From assembly GCA_025361425.1 (NCBI GenBank), contig JANYAH010000255.1, forward strand, positions 1 through 32,051: DNA of 32,051 nucleotides, in the 5' to 3' direction. Position 1 is the stretch's first letter; the number at the start of each line of letters is the position of its first letter. Made by a program: the position numbers and the translations under genes. Source of the DNA: Candidatus Solibacter sp. (GTDB lineage: Bacteria; Acidobacteriota; Terriglobia; Bryobacterales; Bryobacteraceae). Positions 13,467-22,554 of this stretch are shown piece after piece. Under the pieces are notes generated by a model, which worked only from the letters and a program-made list of their open reading frames with translations, searched no databases and was not told the DNA's origin.

Positions 13467-13574
13467 GCAATAAGGCTCGGACGTTCTGCCCCCCGCTTCA
13501 AAAAGGGTCCGCGGCTGCATTCGGAAATGCAAACTCGGCATCCTGCTTGCCTGTTAGGATCCTGGCTTTTGGGA

Positions 13575-13580
13575 TATAGT
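13575..13580 (+). promoter_or_regulatory. -10 element of the MBL-fold gene (likely leaderless)
   Basis: TATAGT ends 8 nt before the ATG at 13589. A start site 6-8 nt downstream of the hexamer would put the first transcribed base at or next to the start codon. There is no Shine-Dalgarno in between, and the -35 region is weak. Confidence 0.5.
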
Positions 13581-13588
13581 ATTGAGTT

Positions 13589-14440
13589 ATGGCATTCCCT
13601 AAGTGCGCGATCACTCGTGTAACCCTGATTTTGGCCGGGGCCGCGGGCCTCTGGGTCGCCTGGGCACAACAGCAGCCGCGCCCGGCGCTCACCATTGAGA
13701 AGGTAACGGAAAATCTCTGGGTCATCGTGGGCAACGGCGGCAACGTAGCCGTCATGCCAACCAGCGAAGGCGTCATCGTGGTGGACGATAAGTTCGCCGA
13801 GGACGCTCCGGCCATCCTTGCCAGGATTAAGACTATCACCGACAAGCCGGTTCGCTACGTTTTGAACACCCATCATCACGGCGATCACACCGGCGGCAAC
13901 GCGGCCATGCTCGCGGCCAACGCCGAAATAATTCTTTCCAGGAACGCGCGGGCCAATATGGTGACCGGGAATCAGTCGGGCCTTCCCCATCTCACCTTTA
14001 GCGACGAACAACAGGTCTTTCTCGGCGGCAAACAGGTTGTCGCTAAGTATCTGGGGCGCGGTCACACCAACGGCGACGCTGTCATCTACTTTCCGGCCGA
14101 GCGCGCACTGCATACCGGCGACCTCTTCGTCACACCGGGCGCGCCCTTCTGCGACACCGCCAACGGCGGCAGCATTAAGGATTGGGACGCCACCATCCAA
14201 AAGGTGCTCCAGTACGATTTCGATATCGTGATTCCGGGTCACGGTCCAGTCTCGAAAAAGGCGGATCTGGTGAAGTGGGTGCAAACCCTCGCCACCGTTC
14301 GGGCGCGCATCAAGGCGGCTTGCGCCGGTGGCGTGGGGGACGCGGCCAAGCGCATCGACCTGAAGGATCTCGGCATGGGCGCGGGCGGCGGCTTGTTCGA
14401 TCGCGGCGTTCCCGGTATGTGCCAGGAACTCGCCCAGTAG
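13589..14440 (+). CDS. Exported MBL-fold metallo-hydrolase (subclass-B3-beta-lactamase-like)
   Basis: The 283-residue protein has a signal peptide (ITRVTLILAGAAGLWVAWAQ) and a complete metallo-beta-lactamase core. Visible landmarks are VVDDKFA near 65-70, the metal motif HHHGDH (H95, H97, D99, H100), GRGHTNGD with the third-site His, HTGDLF with the bridging Asp, and the late metal-ligand segment IPGHGPVS. The zinc-binding set is therefore intact. Proteins of this kind in environmental bacteria include B3 beta-lactamase relatives and periplasmic hydrolases of unknown substrate, so beta-lactam cleavage should not be assumed. It is the last gene before the his operon and seems to have its own promoter. 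Confidence 0.88.
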   Translation: MAFPKCAITRVTLILAGAAGLWVAWAQQQPRPALTIEKVTENLWVIVGNGGNVAVMPTSEGVIVVDDKFAEDAPAILARIKTITDKPVRYVLNTHHHGDHTGGNAAMLAANAEIILSRNARANMVTGNQSGLPHLTFSDEQQVFLGGKQVVAKYLGRGHTNGDAVIYFPAERALHTGDLFVTPGAPFCDTANGGSIKDWDATIQKVLQYDFDIVIPGHGPVSKKADLVKWVQTLATVRARIKAACAGGVGDAAKRIDLKDLGMGAGGGLFDRGVPGMCQELAQ

Positions 14441-14488
14441 AAGCCCTCCTTGCTCGCGCCGTCCTTTGTCCCGCCGCAGCCCGGTCTA

Positions 14489-14526
14489 CTTCGGTAAGTC
14501 GAAGGCCGATCCGACTCTGCTATACT
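14489..14526 (+). promoter_or_regulatory. his operon promoter region with -10 TATACT and a small palindrome
   Basis: TATACT (14521-14526) ends 8 nt before the leader-peptide ATG. The -35 region is weak. An interrupted palindrome, CTTCG (14489-14493) with CGAAG (14500-14504), lies across the expected -35 position and could be a binding site; this is speculative. Confidence 0.55.
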
Positions 14527-14534
14527 GATGGCTT

Positions 14535-14603
14535 ATGACACTGGTCAACGTCGCGCGGCATCATCACCATAGCCATGCCATCCTGCGACGGGCCCTGTCC
14601 TGA
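14535..14603 (+). CDS. hisL: Histidine operon leader peptide (22 residues, five His codons)
   Basis: This ORF is too short for normal gene calling. It starts MTLVNVAR, has HHHHSH encoded at 14559-14576 (CAT CAT CAC CAT AGC CAT), and ends AILRRALS before a TGA. A run of His codons in a short ORF between a promoter and a terminator in front of hisI is the signature of ribosome-mediated attenuation. When charged tRNA-His is scarce the ribosome stalls in the run; otherwise it proceeds to the stop. The peptide itself need have no function. The ATG lies 8 nt after the -10, so the leader may be translated from a leaderless transcript. Confidence 0.9.
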   Translation: MTLVNVARHHHHSHAILRRALS

Positions 14604-14639
14604 TTTTCACTTCATCCGAATCGGAAAGGACGCCCGCCG
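14543..14639 (+). promoter_or_regulatory. his attenuator: protector and antiterminator pairings
   Basis: Segment 1 (GGTC 14543-14546 and GTCGC 14550-14554) can pair with segment 2 (GCGAC 14585-14589 and GGCC 14591-14594), leaving the His codons in the loop. Segment 2 can instead pair with segment 3: CGACGGGC 14586-14593 with GCCCGCCG 14632-14639 (one A-C mismatch), continuing as GTCCT 14597-14601 with AGGAC 14627-14631, with a 3-nt bulge. Segment 3 is also the left arm of the terminator. A ribosome at the stop codon would cover segment 2 and favour termination. One stalled on the first His codons would leave segment 2 free and favour read-through. Confidence 0.8.
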
Positions 14640-14659
14640 CGAAAACGGCGGGCTTTTTT
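14632..14659 (+). terminator. his operon attenuator terminator
   Basis: A perfect 8-bp stem, GCCCGCCG (14632-14639) with CGGCGGGC (14646-14653), closes a 6-nt loop (CGAAAA) and is followed directly by six T's (14654-14659). It lies between the leader peptide and hisI, where an attenuator is expected. Confidence 0.92.
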
Positions 14660-14683
14660 ATTGGTGCAATGGGTAGTATTACA

Positions 14684-15064
14684 ATGAATCTCGATTTCGA
14701 AAAGTCAGGCGGACTGATCACCGCCGTGATCCAGGATCACGCCAGCGGTCGCGTCCTCATGGTCGGCTTCATGAACGAAGAGGCCTTTCAAAAAACTGTG
14801 GAAACCGGCTTTGCCACCTTCTGGAGCCGCTCCCGCCGCAAACTGTGGCTCAAGGGCGAAAGCTCTGGCCATCACCTCCTGGTCAAGGAGATCTCCACCG
14901 ATTGCGACCGCGATGCCGTGCTCGTCAAGGTGGAGGCGCAGGGCCCCGGTGTCTGCCATGAGGGCTACCAAAGCTGCTTCTTCCGCCGCTTCGAAGATGG
15001 CCAGTGGAAGGTGAGCGAAGCCCAAACCTACGATCCCCAAGCGGTCTACGGAGGAAAACAGTGA
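14684..15064 (+). CDS. hisI: Phosphoribosyl-AMP cyclohydrolase
   Basis: HisI opens the purine ring of phosphoribosyl-AMP, step three of histidine synthesis, in the cytoplasm. The product is about 126 residues and has only the cyclohydrolase domain, without a fused HisE. Visible hallmarks are [25 protein letters not shown], the metal motif D-C-D-R-D, and [11 protein letters not shown] carrying the two later zinc cysteines. The ATG at 14684 gives the usual family N-terminus ([11 protein letters not shown]); the ATG at 14669 adds five residues. The gene starts 25 bp after the attenuator's T run and is the first structural gene. Its TGA overlaps the hisG start by 4 bp (GTGA). Confidence 0.95.
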
Positions 15065-15930
15065 AACTCAAACTCGGCATTCCCAAAGGCAGCCTGGAAA
15101 ACGCCACCATCGATCTCTTCCGCCGTGCCGGATTCCAGATCGCTACCTCCAGCCGCTCCTATTTCCCCACCATCGACGATCCTCAAATCGAGTGCATGCT
15201 CATCCGCGCCCAGGAAATGGCGCGCTACGTCGAAGACGGCATTCTCGACGCCGGTCTCACGGGCCGCGATTGGATCGAGGAGAACGAGGCCGATGTGGTC
15301 GCGGTAGCCGACCTGATTTACGCCAAGCAGAGCTTCGGCAAAGTACGCTGGGTTCTGGCCGTGCCGGAGTCGTCGGTCTTCCGCACGGTGCACGATCTCG
15401 CCGGCAAGATCATCGCCACCGAACTGGTGGCCACCACCAAGCGCTACATGAAGAAGCACGGTGTCGAGGCCAAGGTGGAATTCAGTTGGGGCGCCACCGA
15501 AGTCAAGCCGCCCGTACTCGCCGACGCCATTGTGGAGGTCACCGAAACCGGCTCTAGCCTGCGCGCCAACAATCTCAAGATTATCGATACGGTGATGGAA
15601 TCCAACACTCAGTTGATCGCCAACAAGGCATCCTGGGAAGACGCGAAGAAGCGGCGCAAGCTGGAAGATATTCACATGCTGCTTGATGGCGCCATCAACG
15701 CCCTCGGCAAAGTGGGGCTCATGCTCAACGTCCACAAGGACAATCTGGCGGCCGTGCTGGCTGTACTCCCGGCGCTCAAGCGGCCCACCATTTCGCACCT
15801 TAGCGACGACCAGTGGCTGGCGGTCAACACCATCCTGGATGAGACCACCGTGCGCGACATCATTCCCCGGTTGAAGCAAGCGGGCGGCGAGGGAATTGTG
15901 GAATACCCGCTCAACAAGATCGTACTGTGA
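15061..15930 (+). CDS. hisG: ATP phosphoribosyltransferase (long form)
   Basis: HisG joins ATP and PRPP, the first and feedback-controlled step of the pathway. The 289-residue length and the extra C-terminal domain (from about residue 210, with [21 protein letters not shown]) mark the long, self-regulated hexameric form, which does not need HisZ. The N-terminus is [29 protein letters not shown] and the loop [18 protein letters not shown] are the substrate-binding segments. The start is GTG 15061, overlapping the hisI stop as GTGA; upstream in-frame starts lie inside hisI and are not credible. The stop overlaps the hisD start in the same way. Allosteric inhibition by histidine is expected from the family, adding to attenuation. 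Confidence 0.97.
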
Positions 15931-17165
15931 TCCGCATACTCGAGAGCCAACAGGTCGGCCGTCTGTTGGCGCGCAAAGCGGCCCGTTTCACCGAAGCAGA
16001 GGCCGTGGTGCGGCCCATTCTGGATGCCGTCCGCCAACGCGGCGATCGCGCGCTGATGGAATACGCGCGCCAGTTCGACCACCTGGAGCGCAAGAGTGTG
16101 CGCGTGCCGGAATCCGAACTTCACGCCGCGCGCGAGGGGTTGACCCCGGAATTCCGCGCGGCCGTGGAGACCGCTGCCGCCAATATCCGCACCTACGCGC
16201 AGCGCCAGATGCCGCGCGAGTGGACGGCGCAAACCAAGCCGGGGTTGAAGCTCGGCCAGATCGTGCGCCCGCTGGATACCGTAGCCGCCTACATTCCGGC
16301 GGGGCGCTACCCGCTGCCCTCCACCGTGCTGATGACCGCGATTCCGGCGCAGGTGGCGGGCGTGGCCAATATCTGCATCGCCTGCCCCAAGGCGGTGGGC
16401 GAGGTCTTCGGCACCGCGGACCTGCTGGGCGTGCGCCAGGTATTTCAGATGGGCGGCGCGCAGGCCATCGCCGCCTTCGCCTTTGGCACGCGCACCGTGC
16501 CGCGCGCCGACCGCATCGTTGGGCCGGGCAACATTTACGTCGCGGCCGCCAAGAAATTGCTCGCTGGCGAAGTCGGTATCGATTTCATCGCCGGGCCTAC
16601 CGAGATCCTGATCATCGCCGGCGACGGCGATCCCCGACACTACGCTGCCGATATGCTGGCCCAGGCCGAGCATGATGTGGATGCCTCGGCCATCCTGCTG
16701 ACCACCTCCAAGCGCCTGGCTCTGGCAGTGGCGTCCGAAGTGGAGCGCCAGTTGCGCACTTTGCCCACGGCTCCAGTGGCGGCCAAATCGATTGCCAAAA
16801 ACTCGGCCATCATCTTGGTGCGCTCGGTGGAAGAAGCCTTGGAGATTTCCAACCGTTTCGCGCCCGAGCACATGAGTATTCCGGACGCTTCGCTCTTACC
16901 CGGTATCCTTCACGCCGGCAGCGTGTTTGTCGGCCCCTACAGCCCTGAAGCGGCGGGCGACTACGCATCCGGCCCCAATCACGTTCTTCCCACCAGCGGC
17001 GCCGCCCGCCAGCGCGGCGGCCTCTCCGTCACCGACTACCTGAAGGTAATCGCAGTCCAGGAATTGAGTCAGCCGGCGCTGCGGAAACTGGCCTCATCCA
17101 TCACCACCCTGGCGCGCGCCGAAGGTCTGGAAGCCCACGCCAGAAGCGTCGAGGTGCGCCTATGA
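15927..17165 (+). CDS. hisD: Histidinol dehydrogenase
   Basis: The 412-residue protein catalyses the last two steps, the NAD-dependent oxidation of histidinol to histidine, using zinc. Typical blocks are present in order: [53 protein letters not shown], the zinc/catalytic [13 protein letters not shown] with the catalytic Glu-His pair, and the [13 protein letters not shown] region with the last zinc ligand. The length is normal. The start is GTG 15927, overlapping the hisG TGA by 4 bp. Its own stop lies in ATGA (17162-17165), which opens a short bridging ORF rather than hisC, because a 107-bp inverted-repeat element separates it from hisC. Confidence 0.97.
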
Positions 17166-17341
17166 TCCCGTCACCACGGACTCTTCCCAAAGCTGCCAAT
17201 CCCGCACACATTGTGGGGCGGACCCCCTGCTCTGCGCGGGTCCCCCTGGACCCGCTTCTCAGGCATGCCGCGCAAGCCGGCGAAGGCGTCGGCTGCGCAC
17301 CAGAGGGTCCGCCCCACATCCCACTCCCGGAATCCCTATGA
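17162..17341 (+). CDS. Short bridging ORF between hisD and hisC (59 codons), containing the inverted repeat
   Basis: The ORF begins with ATG 17162, overlapping the hisD stop as ATGA, and ends with TGA 17339-17341, overlapping the hisC start as ATGA. It reads [16 protein letters not shown], then repeat-derived sequence, then PHIPLPESL. Pro, Ala and Gly dominate, there is no recognisable domain, and about 60% of it is the inverted-repeat element. Its interest is positional: it would let ribosomes travel from hisD to hisC through two 4-bp overlaps, the spacing used throughout this operon. It may be a coupling device with no functional protein, or chance. Confidence 0.4.
   Translation: MIPSPRTLPKAANPAHIVGRTPCSARVPLDPLLRHAAQAGEGVGCAPEGPPHIPLPESL
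17212..17318. repeat. Inverted-repeat (REP/MITE-like) element between hisD and hisC
   Basis: Perfect 14-bp terminal inverted repeats, TGTGGGGCGGACCC (17212-17225) and its complement (17305-17318), enclose two smaller hairpins: GCGGGTCC with GGACCCGC near 17235-17254, and a GCGCA-GCCG / CGGC-TGCGC stem near 17270-17299. In RNA this would fold as a long stem with two arms. There is no transposase gene. It is probably one copy of a dispersed palindromic repeat. Confidence 0.8.
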
Positions 17342-18417
17342 CCTCTCTAAAACTCCCCTCAGGCGCCATCAAGCCTCGCCCCGCCGTCCTCGCCATGGCG
17401 CCCTATTCCCCGCCCACGGGCGAACGCGCCGACAAACTGCGCCTCGATTTCAACGAAAACACGGTGGGCTGCTCCCCCAAAGTGATCGACTTCCTCAAAG
17501 CCAACCTTTCTGCCGCGGACCTCGCCATCTACCCCGAGTACACCGCCGCCAAGCAAGCCATCGCGCGCTACTTCCACGTCTCGCCCGACCAGTTTGTTTT
17601 CACCAACGGCACCGACGAGGCCATCCAGGTCTTCATCAATACCTATATAGATGACGGTCAGGAAGTGCTCGTGCTCAAGCCGGCGTATGCCATGTACCGC
17701 TTCTATGCCGAAGTCGCCGGAGCCAAAATCAACGAAGTGGCGTATCCCCAGCCGGAGATGGAGTTTCCGCTCCAGCAAGTGCTCGACGCCATCACGCCCC
17801 AAACCCGCGCCGTCATCCTATCCAACCCGAACAACCCCACAGGGACCGGCCTGAGCCTGCTCGCCATTGAGCGCATCCTGTCGCGCGCCAGGCACGCCGT
17901 CGTCATGGTGGACGAAGCCTATTACGAATTCTCCGGCGTCACCGCGCTCACCGAAATTGAACGCGTGCCGCACCTTTTCGTTTGCCGCACTTTCTCCAAA
18001 GTGTTCGGCATGGCGGGGATGCGCCTGGGATGCCTGTTCTCGCACCCGGCGAATATCCAATACCTGCGTAAGGCCCAGTCGCCCTACAGCGTGAATTCCC
18101 TAGCCGTGATGGCCGCGCAGGCGGCGGTAGCCGATACCTCGTACATTGAAAACTACGTCGCCGAAGTGCTGGCCGCGCGCGAACTGCTCTGCGTTGGCCT
18201 CGAGAAACTCGGCATCGCCTACGTGCCCAGCTCGGCCAATTTCGTGCTCGGCCATTTCGGCAAGCGCGCCATCGAAGTGCGCGACCGGCTGCGCGACCAA
18301 GCCATCCTGGTGCGCGACCGCAGCTACGAAGCGCCCGGCTGCGTCCGCATCACCGTGGGCACGCGGGTCCAAACCCGCCGCCTGCTGGAAGCGCTGGAAG
18401 AGATCTGGAACCAATGA
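17338..18417 (+). CDS. hisC: Histidinol-phosphate aminotransferase
   Basis: HisC is a PLP enzyme (aminotransferase fold type I) that converts imidazole-acetol phosphate to histidinol phosphate. The 359-residue protein has RLDFNENTVGCSP near 35-47, NPNNPTG at 163-169, VDEAYYEF with the PLP-contacting Asp192 and Tyr195, and the PLP lysine K221 in RTFSKVFGMAGMRLG. The C-terminal Arg region (CVRITVGTRVQTRRLLEAL) is normal. The start is ATG 17338, with a weak Shine-Dalgarno and overlapping the bridging ORF's stop, so translation may depend on coupling. Its stop overlaps the HAD gene start (ATGA, 18414-18417). Confidence 0.95.
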   Translation: MTSLKLPSGAIKPRPAVLAMAPYSPPTGERADKLRLDFNENTVGCSPKVIDFLKANLSAADLAIYPEYTAAKQAIARYFHVSPDQFVFTNGTDEAIQVFINTYIDDGQEVLVLKPAYAMYRFYAEVAGAKINEVAYPQPEMEFPLQQVLDAITPQTRAVILSNPNNPTGTGLSLLAIERILSRARHAVVMVDEAYYEFSGVTALTEIERVPHLFVCRTFSKVFGMAGMRLGCLFSHPANIQYLRKAQSPYSVNSLAVMAAQAAVADTSYIENYVAEVLAARELLCVGLEKLGIAYVPSSANFVLGHFGKRAIEVRDRLRDQAILVRDRSYEAPGCVRITVGTRVQTRRLLEALEEIWNQ

Positions 18418-19094
18418 ATCAACCTCTGATCGTATTCGACATGGACGGCGTTCTGGTGGACGTCACCGAAAGCTATCGCGAGAGCATCGCCCGAACCGTC
18501 AAGCACTTCACCGGCGTCGACCTGACTCGTGAACAGATTCAGGCCTACAAGAACCAGGGCGGCTGGAACGACGATTGGAAACTTACCCATCACATCATCA
18601 CAGCCGCCGGAAAAGAGATCCCCTTCGAAACCGCCAGGGATTACTTTCAATCCATCTTTCTGGGTAACGGCGAAGGGGGCCTCATCCTTCGCGAAGAATG
18701 GGTGGCGCGCCCCGGCGTGCTCGAACAGCTCAACCGCCAATTCCAGTTCGCGGTCTTCACCGGACGTCCCAAAACTGAAGCCCAACTCACCTTGAGCCGC
18801 TTCGCCGGCGGCGTGGTCTTCCATCCCGTGATCGGCATGTACGACGTGGAGAACCACAAACCGCACCCCGAGGGTCTGCTGCGCATCCTCCAGACCAACC
18901 CTGGCCGCAAGGTCTACTACATCGGCGATACCGTGGATGACGCGCGTTGCGCGCGCGCCGCCCAGGTCCCGTTCATCGGCATCGCCGCGCCCTCCAACCC
19001 GCGCTACCTCGACCTGGTCTTCCTCCTCCAGGAGGAAGGCGCCCACGCCATCGTCGATGACATCAATTTCCTGCAAGAGGTCTTCGCCGCATGA
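18414..19094 (+). CDS. HAD-superfamily phosphatase, candidate histidinol-phosphate phosphatase
   Basis: The 226-residue protein has all four HAD motifs: FDMDGVLVD (nucleophile D9, acid/base D11), T116 in VFTGRP, K149 in NHKPHPE, and GDTVDD (D172, D175/D176). The cap (about residues 15-95) is helical, fitting subfamily IA. The pathway needs a phosphatase for histidinol phosphate. The classical forms (the HisB N-terminal domain, PHP-type HisK, inositol-monophosphatase-like HisN) are all absent here, and this gene sits between hisC and hisB with 4-bp overlaps on both sides. Histidinol-phosphate phosphatase is therefore the best reading, but the inference is from context. It resembles the hypothetical HAD-IA proteins reported in his operons, not E. 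coli HisB-N. Confidence 0.82.
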
Positions 19095-19678
19095 GAACCG
19101 CCACTATACAGCGCGATACCAAGGAGACACGCATCTCCGGCATTTTGAAAATCGAAGGCCGCGGCCGCTATGACATCTCCACCGGCATCCGGTTTTTCGA
19201 CCACATGCTGGAGTTGTTCACCAAACACGGCGGCTTCGACCTCACGCTGAAGGCCGAAGGCGATCTCGACGTGGACCAGCACCACACCGTGGAAGATGTG
19301 GGCATCGTGCTGGGCCAGTTGTTCGCCAAAGCGCTGGGCGACCGCAAGGGCATCAACCGCGCGGGTTACTTCGTCTTGCCCATGGACGAGACCCTCGCCG
19401 TGGTCGCGGTGGATCTCGGCGGACGCCCCGCCCTGGTCTATAAGGATCTGGTCAGGGTGAGGCTGGTGGGCGATCTGCAAACCGAACTCGTCGAGGATTT
19501 CTTCGGCGGCTTCGTGCACCACGCCGGCGCCAACCTGCACGCCAAGGTACTGTACGGCCGCTCCAACCACCACAAATTGGAAGCCATTTTCAAGTGCTTC
19601 GCGCGCGCCATGAAGTTTGCCTGTTCCACGGACGCGCGCCTCAAGGGTCAACTTCCCTCCACGAAGGGGCTGTTGTGA
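19091..19678 (+). CDS. hisB: Imidazoleglycerol-phosphate dehydratase
   Basis: This is the monofunctional dehydratase of 195 residues, without the phosphatase domain of enterobacterial HisB. It dehydrates imidazoleglycerol phosphate to imidazole-acetol phosphate using manganese. Both metal-binding repeats are visible: [17 protein letters not shown] and [17 protein letters not shown] in the first half; [20 protein letters not shown] and [16 protein letters not shown] in the second. The N-terminus ([16 protein letters not shown]) is typical. ATG 19091 overlaps the HAD stop (ATGA), and the hisB stop overlaps the hisH GTG. Confidence 0.97.
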
Positions 19679-20271
19679 TTGCCATCTTCGATTACGGCGC
19701 GGGCAATCTGCGCAGCGTGCAGAACACCCTCGGCGAACTGGGCTGCGAGTACACCCTGGTGCGCGAGTCGGCCGGATTGCTCGCGGCCACCAAAATCCTG
19801 CTTCCCGGCGTGGGCCATTTCGGTCAAATGATGCGCGCGCTGGATGCCCTGGAAGTCCGCCAGACGCTGATTGAACGCATTACCGACGGCGTGCCTTTCC
19901 TCGGCATCTGTCTCGGCATGCAGGCGTTGTTTGATGCCAGCGAAGAGGCCCCGGAAGTCCGCGGCCTCGGCATCTACCCCGGCACGGTGCAGCGTTTCCC
20001 CATGGGTGCGCGTGTTCCCCACATGGGCTGGAACGAGCTCGAAGTGCGCCCCGGATCGAAGCTGATTCACCATCTGAACGCCCGCCCCTACGTGTATTTT
20101 GCGCACAGCTACTACGTGCCCGAAGACCCTCGTGCCAGCGCCACCTGCACCTATGAACTCCGCTACACCGCCGCGCTCGAATGCGGCAACGTGTACGGCG
20201 TCCAGTTTCACCCCGAGAAATCCGGCGCGGTCGGGCTGAAAATCGTCCGCAACTTCCTGGAGACCGCATGA
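19675..20271 (+). CDS. hisH: Imidazole glycerol phosphate synthase, glutamine amidotransferase subunit
   Basis: HisH hydrolyses glutamine and channels ammonia to HisF. The 198-residue class-I amidotransferase begins [14 protein letters not shown] and has LLPGVGHFG, the nucleophile C79 in GICLGMQ, and the catalytic His-Glu in VQFHPEKSG. Start GTG 19675 overlaps the hisB stop (GTGA); longer in-frame starts lie inside hisB and are rejected. In most operons hisA or hisF follows directly; here the stop sits in ATGA (20268-20271), which opens a bridging ORF over an inverted-repeat element before hisF. Confidence 0.97.
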
Positions 20272-20456
20272 GGGAAGAGTCTATTCTACGCAGAGACGCG
20301 GAGGCGCAGAGACAAGCGCAGAGAACGTCAGGAACAAGGCCAACCGGCGCGTGGCGAACCCTGCGCCGGCCATCTATCTCGTTTTTGCGTTTCCTCCTCT
20401 CTGCGCTTATCTCAGCGTCTCTGCGGCTCTGCGGTGAAAGGCCCTCCCCGTGTTAG
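20268..20456 (+). CDS. Short bridging ORF between hisH and hisF (62 codons), repeat-derived
   Basis: ATG 20268 overlaps the hisH stop as ATGA, and the TAG at 20454-20456 lies just inside hisF, overlapping its GTG start by 7 bp. The product starts [16 protein letters not shown] and ends GERPSPC. Most of it is translated inverted repeat, so it is Arg/Ser-rich with a hydrophobic stretch ([14 protein letters not shown]). No domain is recognisable. As with the ORF between hisD and hisC, its value may be to keep ribosomes moving into the next gene. hisF also has GAAAGG 8 nt before its start. Confidence 0.35.
20288..20425. repeat. Inverted-repeat element between hisH and hisF
   Basis: The left arm (20288-20312) has CGCAGAGACGC, then GCGCAGAGA. 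The right arm (20398-20425) has the complements TCTCTGCGC and GCGTCTCTGCG, differing only in the short linker. The arms flank about 85 bp. This CGCAGAGACGC-type palindrome resembles dispersed intergenic repeats of many bacterial genomes. Nothing suggests a transposase. Confidence 0.82.
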
Positions 20457-21214
20457 CCAAACGTATCATTCCCTGTCTCGATGTCACCGGCGGACGCGTC
20501 GTCAAGGGCGTCAACTTCGTCAACCTGCGCGATGCGGGCGATCCGGTGGAACTCGCCGAACGCTACAACCGCGATGGCGCCGATGAACTGGTCTTCCTCG
20601 ATATCACCGCCTCTAGCGACGCCCGCGAGATCATGGCCGACGTGGTGGCCCGCACCGCGCGCCAGGTGTTCATCCCGCTGGCCGTCGGCGGCGGCATCCG
20701 CTCGGTGGGCGACGCGCGGCGCATCCTCATGTCCGGCGCCGACAAGGTCACCGTCAACACCGCCGCCGTGCGCCGTCCCGAACTGATCACCGAACTGAGC
20801 AACGAATTCGGCGCGCAGGCCGTCGTGCTGGCCATCGACGCTCGCCGCCATGGACCCGGCGGATGGCACGTCTTCACGCGCGGTGGGCGCGACGACGAGG
20901 GGCTCGATGCGGTGGCGTGGGCCGCGCGCGGCGAAGCGCTCGGCGCCGGCGAAGTCCTGCTCACTTCCATGGATAGCGACGGCGTGCAGGACGGTTTTGA
21001 TTGCCGCCTCACCCAGGCCGTCTCGCGCGCCACCCACATTCCGCTCATCGCCAGCGGCGGGGCGGGGAAGCCGGAGCACTTCATCCGCGTGCTGACCGAG
21101 GGCCTCGCCGATGCCGCCCTTGCGGCCTCCATCTTTCATTACGGGACTTACACAGTGAATCAACTCAAGGAAGAACTGGACAAACACGGTATTTCGGTGC
21201 GGGTGACGGCATGA
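20450..21214 (+). CDS. hisF: Imidazole glycerol phosphate synthase, cyclase subunit
   Basis: HisF is the TIM-barrel partner of HisH and forms the imidazole ring, releasing AICAR. The 254-residue protein starts [22 protein letters not shown], with the catalytic Asp of CLDV near residue 11. AVGGGIRSV and [10 protein letters not shown], with the second catalytic Asp near 130, follow, and [12 protein letters not shown] carries the late phosphate-binding loop. The start is GTG 20450, with GAAAGG at 8-nt spacing, a site at the edge of the upstream repeat element. The stop overlaps the hisA ATG (ATGA, 21211-21214). Confidence 0.97.
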
Positions 21215-21915
21215 TCGTTCCCTGCATTGATCTGATGGATGGCAAGGTGGTCCAGTTGGTCCAGGGGCGCGAGAAGGCGCTGGAGGGCGATAGCCCCGAG
21301 GAGATGCTGCGCAAATTCGCCGCGTTCCCTGAAATCCAGGTGATCGATCTGGATGCCGCCCTGGGCCGCGGGTCCAACGACGAACTGGTGCGCATGCTGG
21401 CCGACAAAGCGGTGTGCCGCGTCGGCGGCGGCGTGCGCACGGTGGACCGCGCGCGCACGCTGCTCGCGCAGGGCGCCCACCGCGTGATCGTCGGCACCAG
21501 CGCGTTCATCAAGGGCGGCATCAATGAAGAGCTTCTGTCCGCTTTGCGCGATGCCGTGGGCCGCGAACGCTTGACCATTGCACTCGATTCTAAAGGCGGC
21601 CGCATTGTGGTCAAAGGCTGGCAGGAAGCCACCGCTTTCACCGCCGAAGAGGTGCTGGCGTCGCTCGAGCCCTATTGCGCAGGCTTCCTGTGCACCTATG
21701 TCGATAAGGAAGGCATGATGCAGGGCACGGACCTCGACTGGTTCCGCCGGCTGCGTGCCGCCACCACTTTGGAAATCACCGCGGCCGGCGGCATCACGAC
21801 TCTCGAAGAGGTCAAGGCGCTGCTCGCCATGAACATCGATGCGGCGCTCGGCATGGCGATTTACACCGGCCGTCTCAAGCTGGAAGACCTGGCCGCGGTG
21901 GGACAGGCCTCCTGA
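21211..21915 (+). CDS. hisA: Phosphoribosylformimino-5-aminoimidazole carboxamide ribotide isomerase
   Basis: HisA is the TIM-barrel isomerase that supplies HisF. The 234-residue protein begins [18 protein letters not shown] with the catalytic Asp of [27 protein letters not shown] and the second catalytic Asp in [14 protein letters not shown] follow, and [13 protein letters not shown] carries the phosphate-binding loop. ATG 21211 overlaps the hisF stop; longer in-frame starts are inside hisF and are rejected. It is the last his gene. The stop lies in a 13-bp tandem duplication. No strong terminator is visible after it. Confidence 0.95.
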
Positions 21916-22063
21916 CCAGGCCTCCTGACCTGTCTATGCTACTTCGGCGCCACCATGACTGGGATGGCCCGCCGTCGGCCAGCTTCCCGGTGAGCTTGGG
22001 CTCGGTGGCTAAGGCGAGCATCGCCAGGGAGAGAACCAGCGCAAGGGCGCGCAGGCCCGTCAT
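21875..22063 (-). CDS. Doubtful small secreted ORF downstream of ridA, running antisense into hisA
   Basis: The ATG at 22063 is 2 nt after the ridA stop. The first 20 residues (MTGLRALALVLSLAMLALAT) look exactly like a signal peptide, followed by EPKLTGKLADGG. After that the sequence becomes Arg/Pro-rich, crosses the 13-bp duplication and ends inside the 3' end of hisA, which suggests loss of the original frame or stop. It may be the stub of an exported protein cotranscribed with ridA, or a chance hydrophobic stretch. No family is recognised. Confidence 0.3.
   Translation of the reverse strand: MTGLRALALVLSLAMLALATEPKLTGKLADGGPSQSWWRRSSIDRSGGLVRRPVPPRPGLPA
21904..21929. repeat. 13-bp tandem duplication across the hisA stop codon
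   Basis: CAGGCCTCCTGAC occurs twice in a row (21904-21916 and 21917-21929). The first copy contains the hisA stop codon. The second copy is in a different frame and lies wholly downstream. Confidence 0.9.
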
Positions 22064-22065
22064 AC

Positions 22066-22554
22066 CTACGTCTTCGGGGTAGTGCGGAACATGGCGATGG
22101 CTTCGATTTCGATGAGCAGTTCCGGGCGGCAGAGAATCGCCTGTATCCCGGTGGAAGCAGGGACGGGGTCGAGTTTCTGCTGGCGGAAAAACTCGGTCCG
22201 TTCCTCGTTGAACGCCGCGTAATCGCGCTCGATGTCGCGCAGGTAGCAGGTGGTGCGCACGATGTCGTGCCAGGTGGCGCCTTCGGCTTCGAGCAGGCCG
22301 GTAATGTTCTGGTAGGTGCGGCGTAACTGAGCCCGGAAGTCGCCGATGTGCACGCTGCGTCCTTCCTCGTCGATGCTGGCGGTCCCGGAGATCAGCAGGA
22401 TGGCGAGACCGTTGAGGTCAATACGCATGCCGCGTACAAAGGAGCTAGGCTTGGCGTAATCGTAGGCCTCGTTGAGCACCCGGAGGTTGGTGATGGCGCG
22501 TTTTTCCACAGGCAGTGCCGCCAGATTTTGCAAGAGGTCAGCTTCCAGGGTCAT
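22066..22554 (-). CDS. RidA/YjgF-family protein
   Basis: The 162-residue protein has the Rid-family core: LISGTASIDEEG, the FRAQLRRTYQNITGLLEAEGATWHDIV helix region, TTCYLRDIERDYAAFNEER, and the C-terminal PASTGIQAILCRPELLIEIEAIA. The canonical RidA imine-deaminase active site has an Arg in the A-x-R-V segment; here the equivalent stretch is ILCRPELLIEIE, so a variant Rid subfamily is likely. It therefore need not be the 2-aminoacrylate deaminase. There is no signal peptide. A TATTAT hexamer 5 nt before the ATG and the absence of a Shine-Dalgarno suggest a leaderless start. It is convergent with the his operon. Confidence 0.85.
   Translation of the reverse strand: MTLEADLLQNLAALPVEKRAITNLRVLNEAYDYAKPSSFVRGMRIDLNGLAILLISGTASIDEEGRSVHIGDFRAQLRRTYQNITGLLEAEGATWHDIVRTTCYLRDIERDYAAFNEERTEFFRQQKLDPVPASTGIQAILCRPELLIEIEAIAMFRTTPKT

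Follow-up and report, generated by a model that had tools for sequence, protein, structure and literature searches.

A probable ribosome-mediated attenuator of the histidine operon in Candidatus Solibacter, with an apparently leaderless leader peptide and relatives scattered across the Acidobacteriota

We identified an RNA leader in front of the histidine operon of Candidatus Solibacter sp. that is very probably a ribosome-mediated transcription attenuator. The leader and the operon lie on the forward strand of a contig of 32,051 nucleotides (JANYAH010000255.1; the whole stretch is hereafter the window), which belongs to an assembly of 377 contigs that is 95% complete. A previous reading of the window made from sequence only had taken its host to be an acidobacterium; the closest named hisI loci are those of Candidatus Solibacter and Bryobacterales MAGs, and the window therefore derives from an acidobacterium belonging to that group.

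The leader contains a hisL-like ORF (14535–14603) encoding MTLVNVARHHHHSHAILRRALS*, whose translation probably begins at a leaderless 5' end. Its 22 codons include a regulatory run of five His codons among six (14559–14576, with His codons at 14559, 14562, 14565, 14568, and 14574), just as the sequence-only reading had described, and the repeated codon is thus that of the amino acid made by the downstream his operon. At the local His frequency, the chance of finding at least five His in some six-codon stretch of such an ORF is about 6e-7. The His pattern CAYCAYCAYCAYNNNCAY occurs nine times in the genome and twice in the control, so the evidence comes from context and conservation, not from the His run alone.

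Four segments of the leader form alternative pairings. Segment 1 (14543–14555) is the 5' arm of a protector hairpin, and segment 2 (14584–14601) pairs either with segment 1 in the protector or with segment 3 (14627–14639) in an antiterminator. The last part of segment 3 (14632–14639) is also the 5' arm of an intrinsic terminator located between the leader ORF and the first structural gene, the 3' portion of which is segment 4 (14646–14659), consisting of the 3' arm (14646–14653) and a tail of six T residues (14654–14659). The eight base pairs of this terminator stem are perfect and its TTTTTT tail is complete, as had been proposed.

The minimum-free-energy fold of 14535–14660 holds the protector and the terminator together (-46.4 kcal/mol, z = -3.1), and none of 200 shuffled sequences folds as well. 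The protector in this fold, which encloses the regulatory codons, consists of 14543–14546 paired with 14591–14594 and of 14549–14555 paired with 14584–14590; the hairpin of the sequence-only reading is thus recovered, with its inner helix extended by one G-U pair beyond the earlier description. The terminator stretch alone (14627–14660) folds with -18.6 kcal/mol (z -3.4), and the protector by itself is weaker (z -1.1, with 32 of 200 shuffles equally good). When the RNA extends only to the terminator loop (14577–14645), it adopts the antiterminator (-23.8 kcal/mol, z -2.5), in agreement with the competing structure expected earlier. The terminator stem is the longest and most GC-rich of five terminator-like sites within 13500–22500, a number of sites that is not above that in shuffles of the region (mean 8.2).

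Downstream of the leader the gene order is hisI-hisG-hisD-hisC-HAD-hisB-hisH-hisF-hisA. The first structural gene, hisI (phosphoribosyl-AMP cyclohydrolase), is listed at 14669–15064, and its start is probably the ATG at 14684 instead of 14669, because relatives start, by eye, at an MNLDFEK-like codon. It is followed by hisG (15061–15930), hisD (15927–17165), hisC (17338–18417), a HAD-family hydrolase that is a putative histidinol-phosphate phosphatase (18414–19094), the dehydratase gene hisB (19091–19678), hisH (19675–20271), hisF (20450–21214), and hisA (21211–21915). The start of hisH was picked by eye within a listed ORF of 19594–20271, in which the family match begins at residue 29. The best family for hisA is TIGR00007 (E 9e-52), with a score of 175.9 bits that lies under the curated cut-off of 228.95. 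A gap of 178 nucleotides (20272–20449) separates hisH and hisF in this otherwise tight operon, and a reading frame inside the gap resembles, by eye, an inserted repeat element.

The leader is conserved in relatives. We gathered 139 hisI loci (30 + 80 + 29), of which 120 were left after dropping those with identical 120-nucleotide upstream ends, near-identical regions being kept. A leader was scored as an ORF of 6–45 codons with at least four His in seven codons, ending no more than 220 nucleotides from hisI. Such a His-rich ORF is present in 100 of the 120 non-identical regions; the same count gives 23 for Arg and 16 for Ala, the next most frequent amino acids. At five in seven codons the counts are 76 for His and 3 for Ala, the next. 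The 104 regions with at least three His were used as the leader set in the tests of pairing, promoter, and geometry described below. The terminator 5' arm begins 17–58 nucleotides past the leader stop codon in these 104 leaders, and 25–30 nucleotides past it in 71 of them. Outside the His run the peptide differs strongly between relatives.

Most members of one family of the same order (f3) have no leader before hisI: 12 of 18 genomes show two His or fewer (L116, L119, L120–L122, L124, L126, L127, L130, L131, L133, and L136), and the six others have at least three His. One of these loci, L119, resembles by eye a decayed leader with ACG at the expected position of the leader ATG. Elsewhere, L008 has no His-rich ORF within its 254 nucleotides, L016 has no His-rich leader ORF upstream of hisI, and L028 has two His only, yet carries a leader-like ORF and matches the covariance model described below. 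Four loci (L089, L112, L128, and L140) have three His each and fall below the four-His rule. In L014 the promoter box is followed directly by the conserved terminator with no leader ORF, which is either a genuine deletion or an artifact of assembly.

We examined the pairings in an alignment (A1, made with MAFFT) of 94 of the 104 leaders, none more than 93% identical. Because the arms GCCCG and CGGGC hardly vary among leaders, classical covariation is limited. The terminator is paired in 96.4% of cells, four of its eight pairs have changed on both sides, and its covariation score exceeds all 500 shuffles. The protector is paired in 61.7% of cells compared with 36–50% when the helix is slid. Its covariation score is matched by 12 of 500 shuffles and its count of pairs changed on both sides by 273 of 500, making this fixed-register result moderate. 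The antiterminator has a nearly invariant core (88.5% paired) and an outer helix that shifts register (51.6% paired). The sequence-only reading had named the His run and the pairings as features to expect in relatives; both are kept in most of them, and what did not appear is antiterminator covariation beyond shuffles in a fixed register (score matched by 182 of 500).

Our conclusions therefore lean on swap and synonymous-recoding tests, which need no fixed register. Across the 104 leaders, native partners of segments 2 and 3 pair with -19.8 kcal/mol versus -17.9 kcal/mol for swapped partners (0 of 10,000 permutations), and segments 1 and 2 likewise favor their native partners (0 of 5,000). 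Among 32 representatives with less than 75% hisI identity, permutations equaled the native pairing in 1 of 5,000 cases for segments 2 and 3, 3 of 5,000 for segments 1 and 2, and 0 of 5,000 for segments 3 and 4. Synonymous recoding of the leader lowers the protector from 11.6 to 6.5 expected pairs and the antiterminator from 0.83 to 0.62, with native values higher in 93 of 104 leaders in both cases. Selection thus acts on the pairing of the RNA, beyond the peptide that it encodes.

In a simple model, we placed a ribosome with an assumed downstream footprint of 12 nucleotides on an RNA whose synthesis had reached the terminator loop. The mean antiterminator probability is 0.83 when the first His codon occupies the A site, and 98 of 104 leaders exceed 0.5; when the stop codon occupies the A site, the probability is 0 and no leader of the 104 exceeds 0.5. 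The geometry put forward in the sequence-only reading therefore works in this model: the antiterminator and terminator are computed to be mutually exclusive and chosen by ribosome position. With no ribosome, and before segment 4 is made, the mean is 0.60 and 71 of 104 leaders exceed 0.5, which makes it doubtful that, at equilibrium, the protector brings about termination by default. The corresponding values for the window itself are 0.83 (first His), 0 (stop), and 0.83 (no ribosome). In the absence of translation the protector may enforce termination only if it is formed first in time, an order of events that the full-length fold suggests for the window but does not prove.

A conserved promoter element lies close to the leader ORF. 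In the window it is an extended -10 element, TGC-TATACT (14518–14526), with no recognizable -35. A TATACT-like box ends 8–9 nucleotides 5' of the leader ATG in 87 of 104 leaders and 6–10 nucleotides 5' of it in 94, and among these 94 boxed relatives the TG positions before the hexamer carry T (85%) and G (96%), the signature of an extended -10. No -35 is visible before the leaders with a -10 box. A consensus promoter scan gave no promoter at the leader because the scan requires a -35. The usual spacing between a -10 element and the start site would put the transcription start at the ATG or two to three bases upstream. Shine-Dalgarno-like 4-mers occur in only 10 of 104 leaders. Because of this scarcity and the -10 box 8–9 nucleotides before the ATG, the leader ORF is probably leaderless; the sequence-only reading had offered this as a possibility, and the conserved box strengthens it.

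The same combination of extended -10 and ATG occurs at nine sites in the genome versus one in a reversed control, and none of the other eight sites reads by eye as an amino-acid leader. One site with this spacing (L149) precedes a 472-amino-acid ORF that resembles glutamyl-tRNA synthetase by eye, which suggests that this gene too is leaderless. The available text of PMC3160421 calls leaderless genes by the same -10 signal, reports it in three of three Acidobacteria genomes, and counts 13.3% of genes on average as leaderless in Acidobacteria genomes.

Sequence and comparison establish which elements are present, that they are conserved, that they can pair in alternative ways, and where the promoter lies. 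From this arrangement we infer where transcription starts, that the leader is translated, that ribosomes stall on it, and that the switch responds to histidine, as follows. RNA polymerase, directed by the extended -10 promoter, would begin the RNA at the leader ATG or no more than a few bases from it, and a ribosome would load directly onto the 5' AUG. When charged His-tRNA is present, the ribosome would reach the stop codon and cover segment 2, leaving segments 3 and 4 to form the terminator, so that transcription would end before hisI. When charged His-tRNA is scarce, the ribosome would stall on the His codons and cover segment 1. Segment 2 would then be left uncovered and pair with segment 3, which would block the terminator and let the his genes be transcribed.

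In addition to its action in cis, the leader might act in trans, through its terminated RNA or through its peptide, like rnTrpL and peTrpL of Sinorhizobium meliloti. We regard this as improbable: a similar leaderless terminated leader does act in trans in that species according to the accessible portion of PMC7298713, but the strong variation of the peptide outside the His run speaks against such a role. It is less probable still that the terminator is constitutive, for example that of the upstream gene encoding a metallo-beta-lactamase-fold protein, with the His-rich ORF being incidental or serving only the re-initiation of translation at hisI. The terminator is strong alone and sits between two genes on the same strand, as this explanation would expect. 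However, of 78 leader loci with at least 1000 nucleotides upstream, one (the window itself) carries a homolog of this upstream gene, while the leader and terminator stay with hisI (hisG is found at 78 and hisD at 75 of the same 78 loci). Moreover, exchanging partners between leaders worsens the match among the His ORF, its 3' end, and the terminator arm, and the leader stop codon lies 65 nucleotides before the listed hisI start, compared with a peak at about 10–11 base pairs for re-initiation in the available part of PMC4833913. A genuine switch that does its sensing otherwise than through a stalled ribosome, for example as a riboswitch, by a protein, or by a tRNA sensor resembling a T-box, is the least probable of the three: T-boxes or the repressor HisR control his genes in other phyla, as described in the available text of PMC9413887, but no Rfam family, T-box included, reaches threshold in the window, and the conserved feature is an in-frame run of His codons after a start codon.

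Attenuation by a translating ribosome thus remains our preferred reading, and we searched for similar leaders elsewhere in the phylum. At E up to 0.01, a covariance model built from A1 has matches in 95 of the 297 genomes of the phylum. We inspected 69 matches besides the window, the best 29 and the next 40 by E-value with one skipped. Among the best 29, 28 precede a his gene and include a His-rich leader; the leader at L152 is the same as that at L114 in the same genome. Of the 40 weaker matches, 17 likewise combine a His-rich leader with a his gene downstream. Another 17 of the 40 are neither His leaders before a his gene nor leaders for another amino acid nor the contig-end case L220, and the figure of 95 genomes therefore overstates the number of true leaders; nine of these 17 resemble ordinary terminators when read by eye. 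The 45 matches at his genes fall in family f1 and in f8, f10, f11, f21, f23, f30, f50, f52, f73, and f81, and the match in f21 (L208) lacks a T tail.

In a separate survey of hisG, found in 98 of 149 genomes, we examined 64 hand-chosen upstream regions from 63 genomes, two further fetched regions being left out as too short. At least four His in seven codons and a loosely defined terminator-like tail are present in 26 of the 64, distributed among f8, f24, f27, f30, f31, f39, f50, f52, and f64; the f24 and f31 cases are doubtful. The other 38 regions have no leader by this rule, although three of them (L295, L300, and L317) contain a His-rich ORF followed by a hairpin, in two cases just beyond the distance searched. 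In f27 (L297, L296, L299, and L302–L304), His-rich leader ORFs lie about 160–170 nucleotides before hisG, and the terminators are, by eye, imperfect GCGTCG-type hairpins with a T tail, unlike the GCCCGCC type. In f23, two His-rich leader ORFs are arranged in series before hisG, each followed by a terminator (some recognized by eye). These apparent tandem His attenuators are present in all four genomes inspected, from two genera (L173, L179, L190, and L211 in G076, G128, G090, and G103, respectively). Judged from these genome surveys, the distribution of the his attenuator in Acidobacteriota is wide but patchy.

We repeated the tests on leaders from other families. Sixty were supplied, and eight (L172, L208, and all six from f27) were dropped because the terminator finder found no good stem, leaving 52. 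Nine of the 26 hisG-survey positives were left out of the set, six from genomes already included plus L330, L335, and L336, whose leaders look less convincing. In the ribosome model, a stall frees the antiterminator in 48 of the 52 and a ribosome at the stop codon does so in none, and native leaders score above synonymous recodings in 41. In addition, TANNNT occurs 6–10 nucleotides 5' of the start codon in 42 of the 52.

The E. coli his leader consists of a His-codon ORF, a protector, an antiterminator, and an intrinsic terminator, and the window shares with enterobacterial hisL (RF00514) this set of parts before the his operon, including the short ORF with its run of His. The E. coli anatomy is summarized in the available text of PMC3896937. 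In contrast to enterobacterial hisL, the window has hisI as the first structural gene and a leader that is apparently leaderless with an extended -10 promoter, lies outside the Proteobacteria, and has no RF00514 match, either at the gathering score across the window or at E up to 10 in 14300–14800. The T-box (RF00230) has no match at the gathering threshold in the whole window, and a weak match to Thr_leader (17.9 bits versus a cut-off of 55) was taken as a chance resemblance.

Predicted his attenuators of Firmicutes also combine an antiterminator and a terminator before his operons, with three to five consecutive His codons in the leader peptides, and RF00514 is not found there either (PMC9413887, in its available text). 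They were described in 17 genomes of three lineages, compared with the many families of Acidobacteriota here, and the main text of that paper contains no word beginning with "acidobacter". Leader ORFs transcribed from their own start, as apparently in the window, include LeuL, TrpL, and IlvL of Streptomyces lividans (PMC8079986) and trpL of Sinorhizobium meliloti (PMC7298713), and in the accessible portions of these papers several such leaderless ORFs are followed by a terminator. These leaders serve other amino acids in other phyla than that of the window, and there is no His leader among the eight leader peptides reported for S. lividans in the available part of PMC8079986. The emphasis that the sequence-only reading placed on Proteobacteria as the home of such attenuators was thus too strong, given those described in Actinobacteria (PMC8079986) and Firmicutes (PMC9413887) in the available texts. 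Short leader genes are counted by distance in PMC4833913, Acidobacteria included, with no his attenuation in its available text. Our literature search on leader-peptide attenuation in Acidobacteriota found no such attenuator recognizably described among the papers listed, and an earlier mention (e.g. by Lopatovskaya and colleagues in 2010) is possible. The window's element is best explained as operating, in its predicted regulation, like enterobacterial his attenuation, as a separate and apparently leaderless version that is wide in one phylum.

Candidate leaders for other amino acids were also found. The genome that contains the window also has a leader ORF rich in Ile and Val, MLNGFTSRTLLPTAYGIPVGIIICILVIVPGPA, before ilvB (L263; G000:C28, from about 7919 onward). 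The 5' part of its terminator can pair by eye with the 3' end of the leader, and a -10 box lies about 16 nucleotides before the ATG, making it a probable ilv attenuator from its sequence features. Ile/Val-rich leader candidates are present at 15 of 30 ilvB loci (28 with at least 250 nucleotides upstream). Among the covariance-model matches, leaders recognized by eye and regarded as probable include a Thr-run leader before thrB (L174), Trp-run leaders before TrpB-like genes (L194 and L203), a Trp leader before trpE (L217), a Tyr-run leader before a DAHP synthase gene (L227), and a Lys-rich leader before asd (L205). A search for Trp-rich leaders before trpE in Bryobacteraceae and the other families of the order gave two candidates, both implausible, among 30 loci, 28 of which have 250 nucleotides or more upstream, and a search for Leu-run leaders before ilvB gave 1 of 26 scanned, also implausible.

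We lean slightly towards the view that ribosome-mediated attenuation in Acidobacteriota is an old form belonging to the phylum itself, leaderless for the most part, centered on his, extending to ilv, thr, trp, aromatic, and lysine-pathway genes, and doubled in one family. If this is true, leader-peptide attenuation did not spread mainly from the Gammaproteobacteria. The presence of a conserved attenuator in many families makes the age of the mechanism testable, and existing sequence models miss such elements in searches. The leaderless start raises the question of whether ribosome loading on a 5'-AUG is fast enough to match RNA polymerase. For a little-studied soil phylum, the conserved his attenuator gives both a function and a regulatory prediction.
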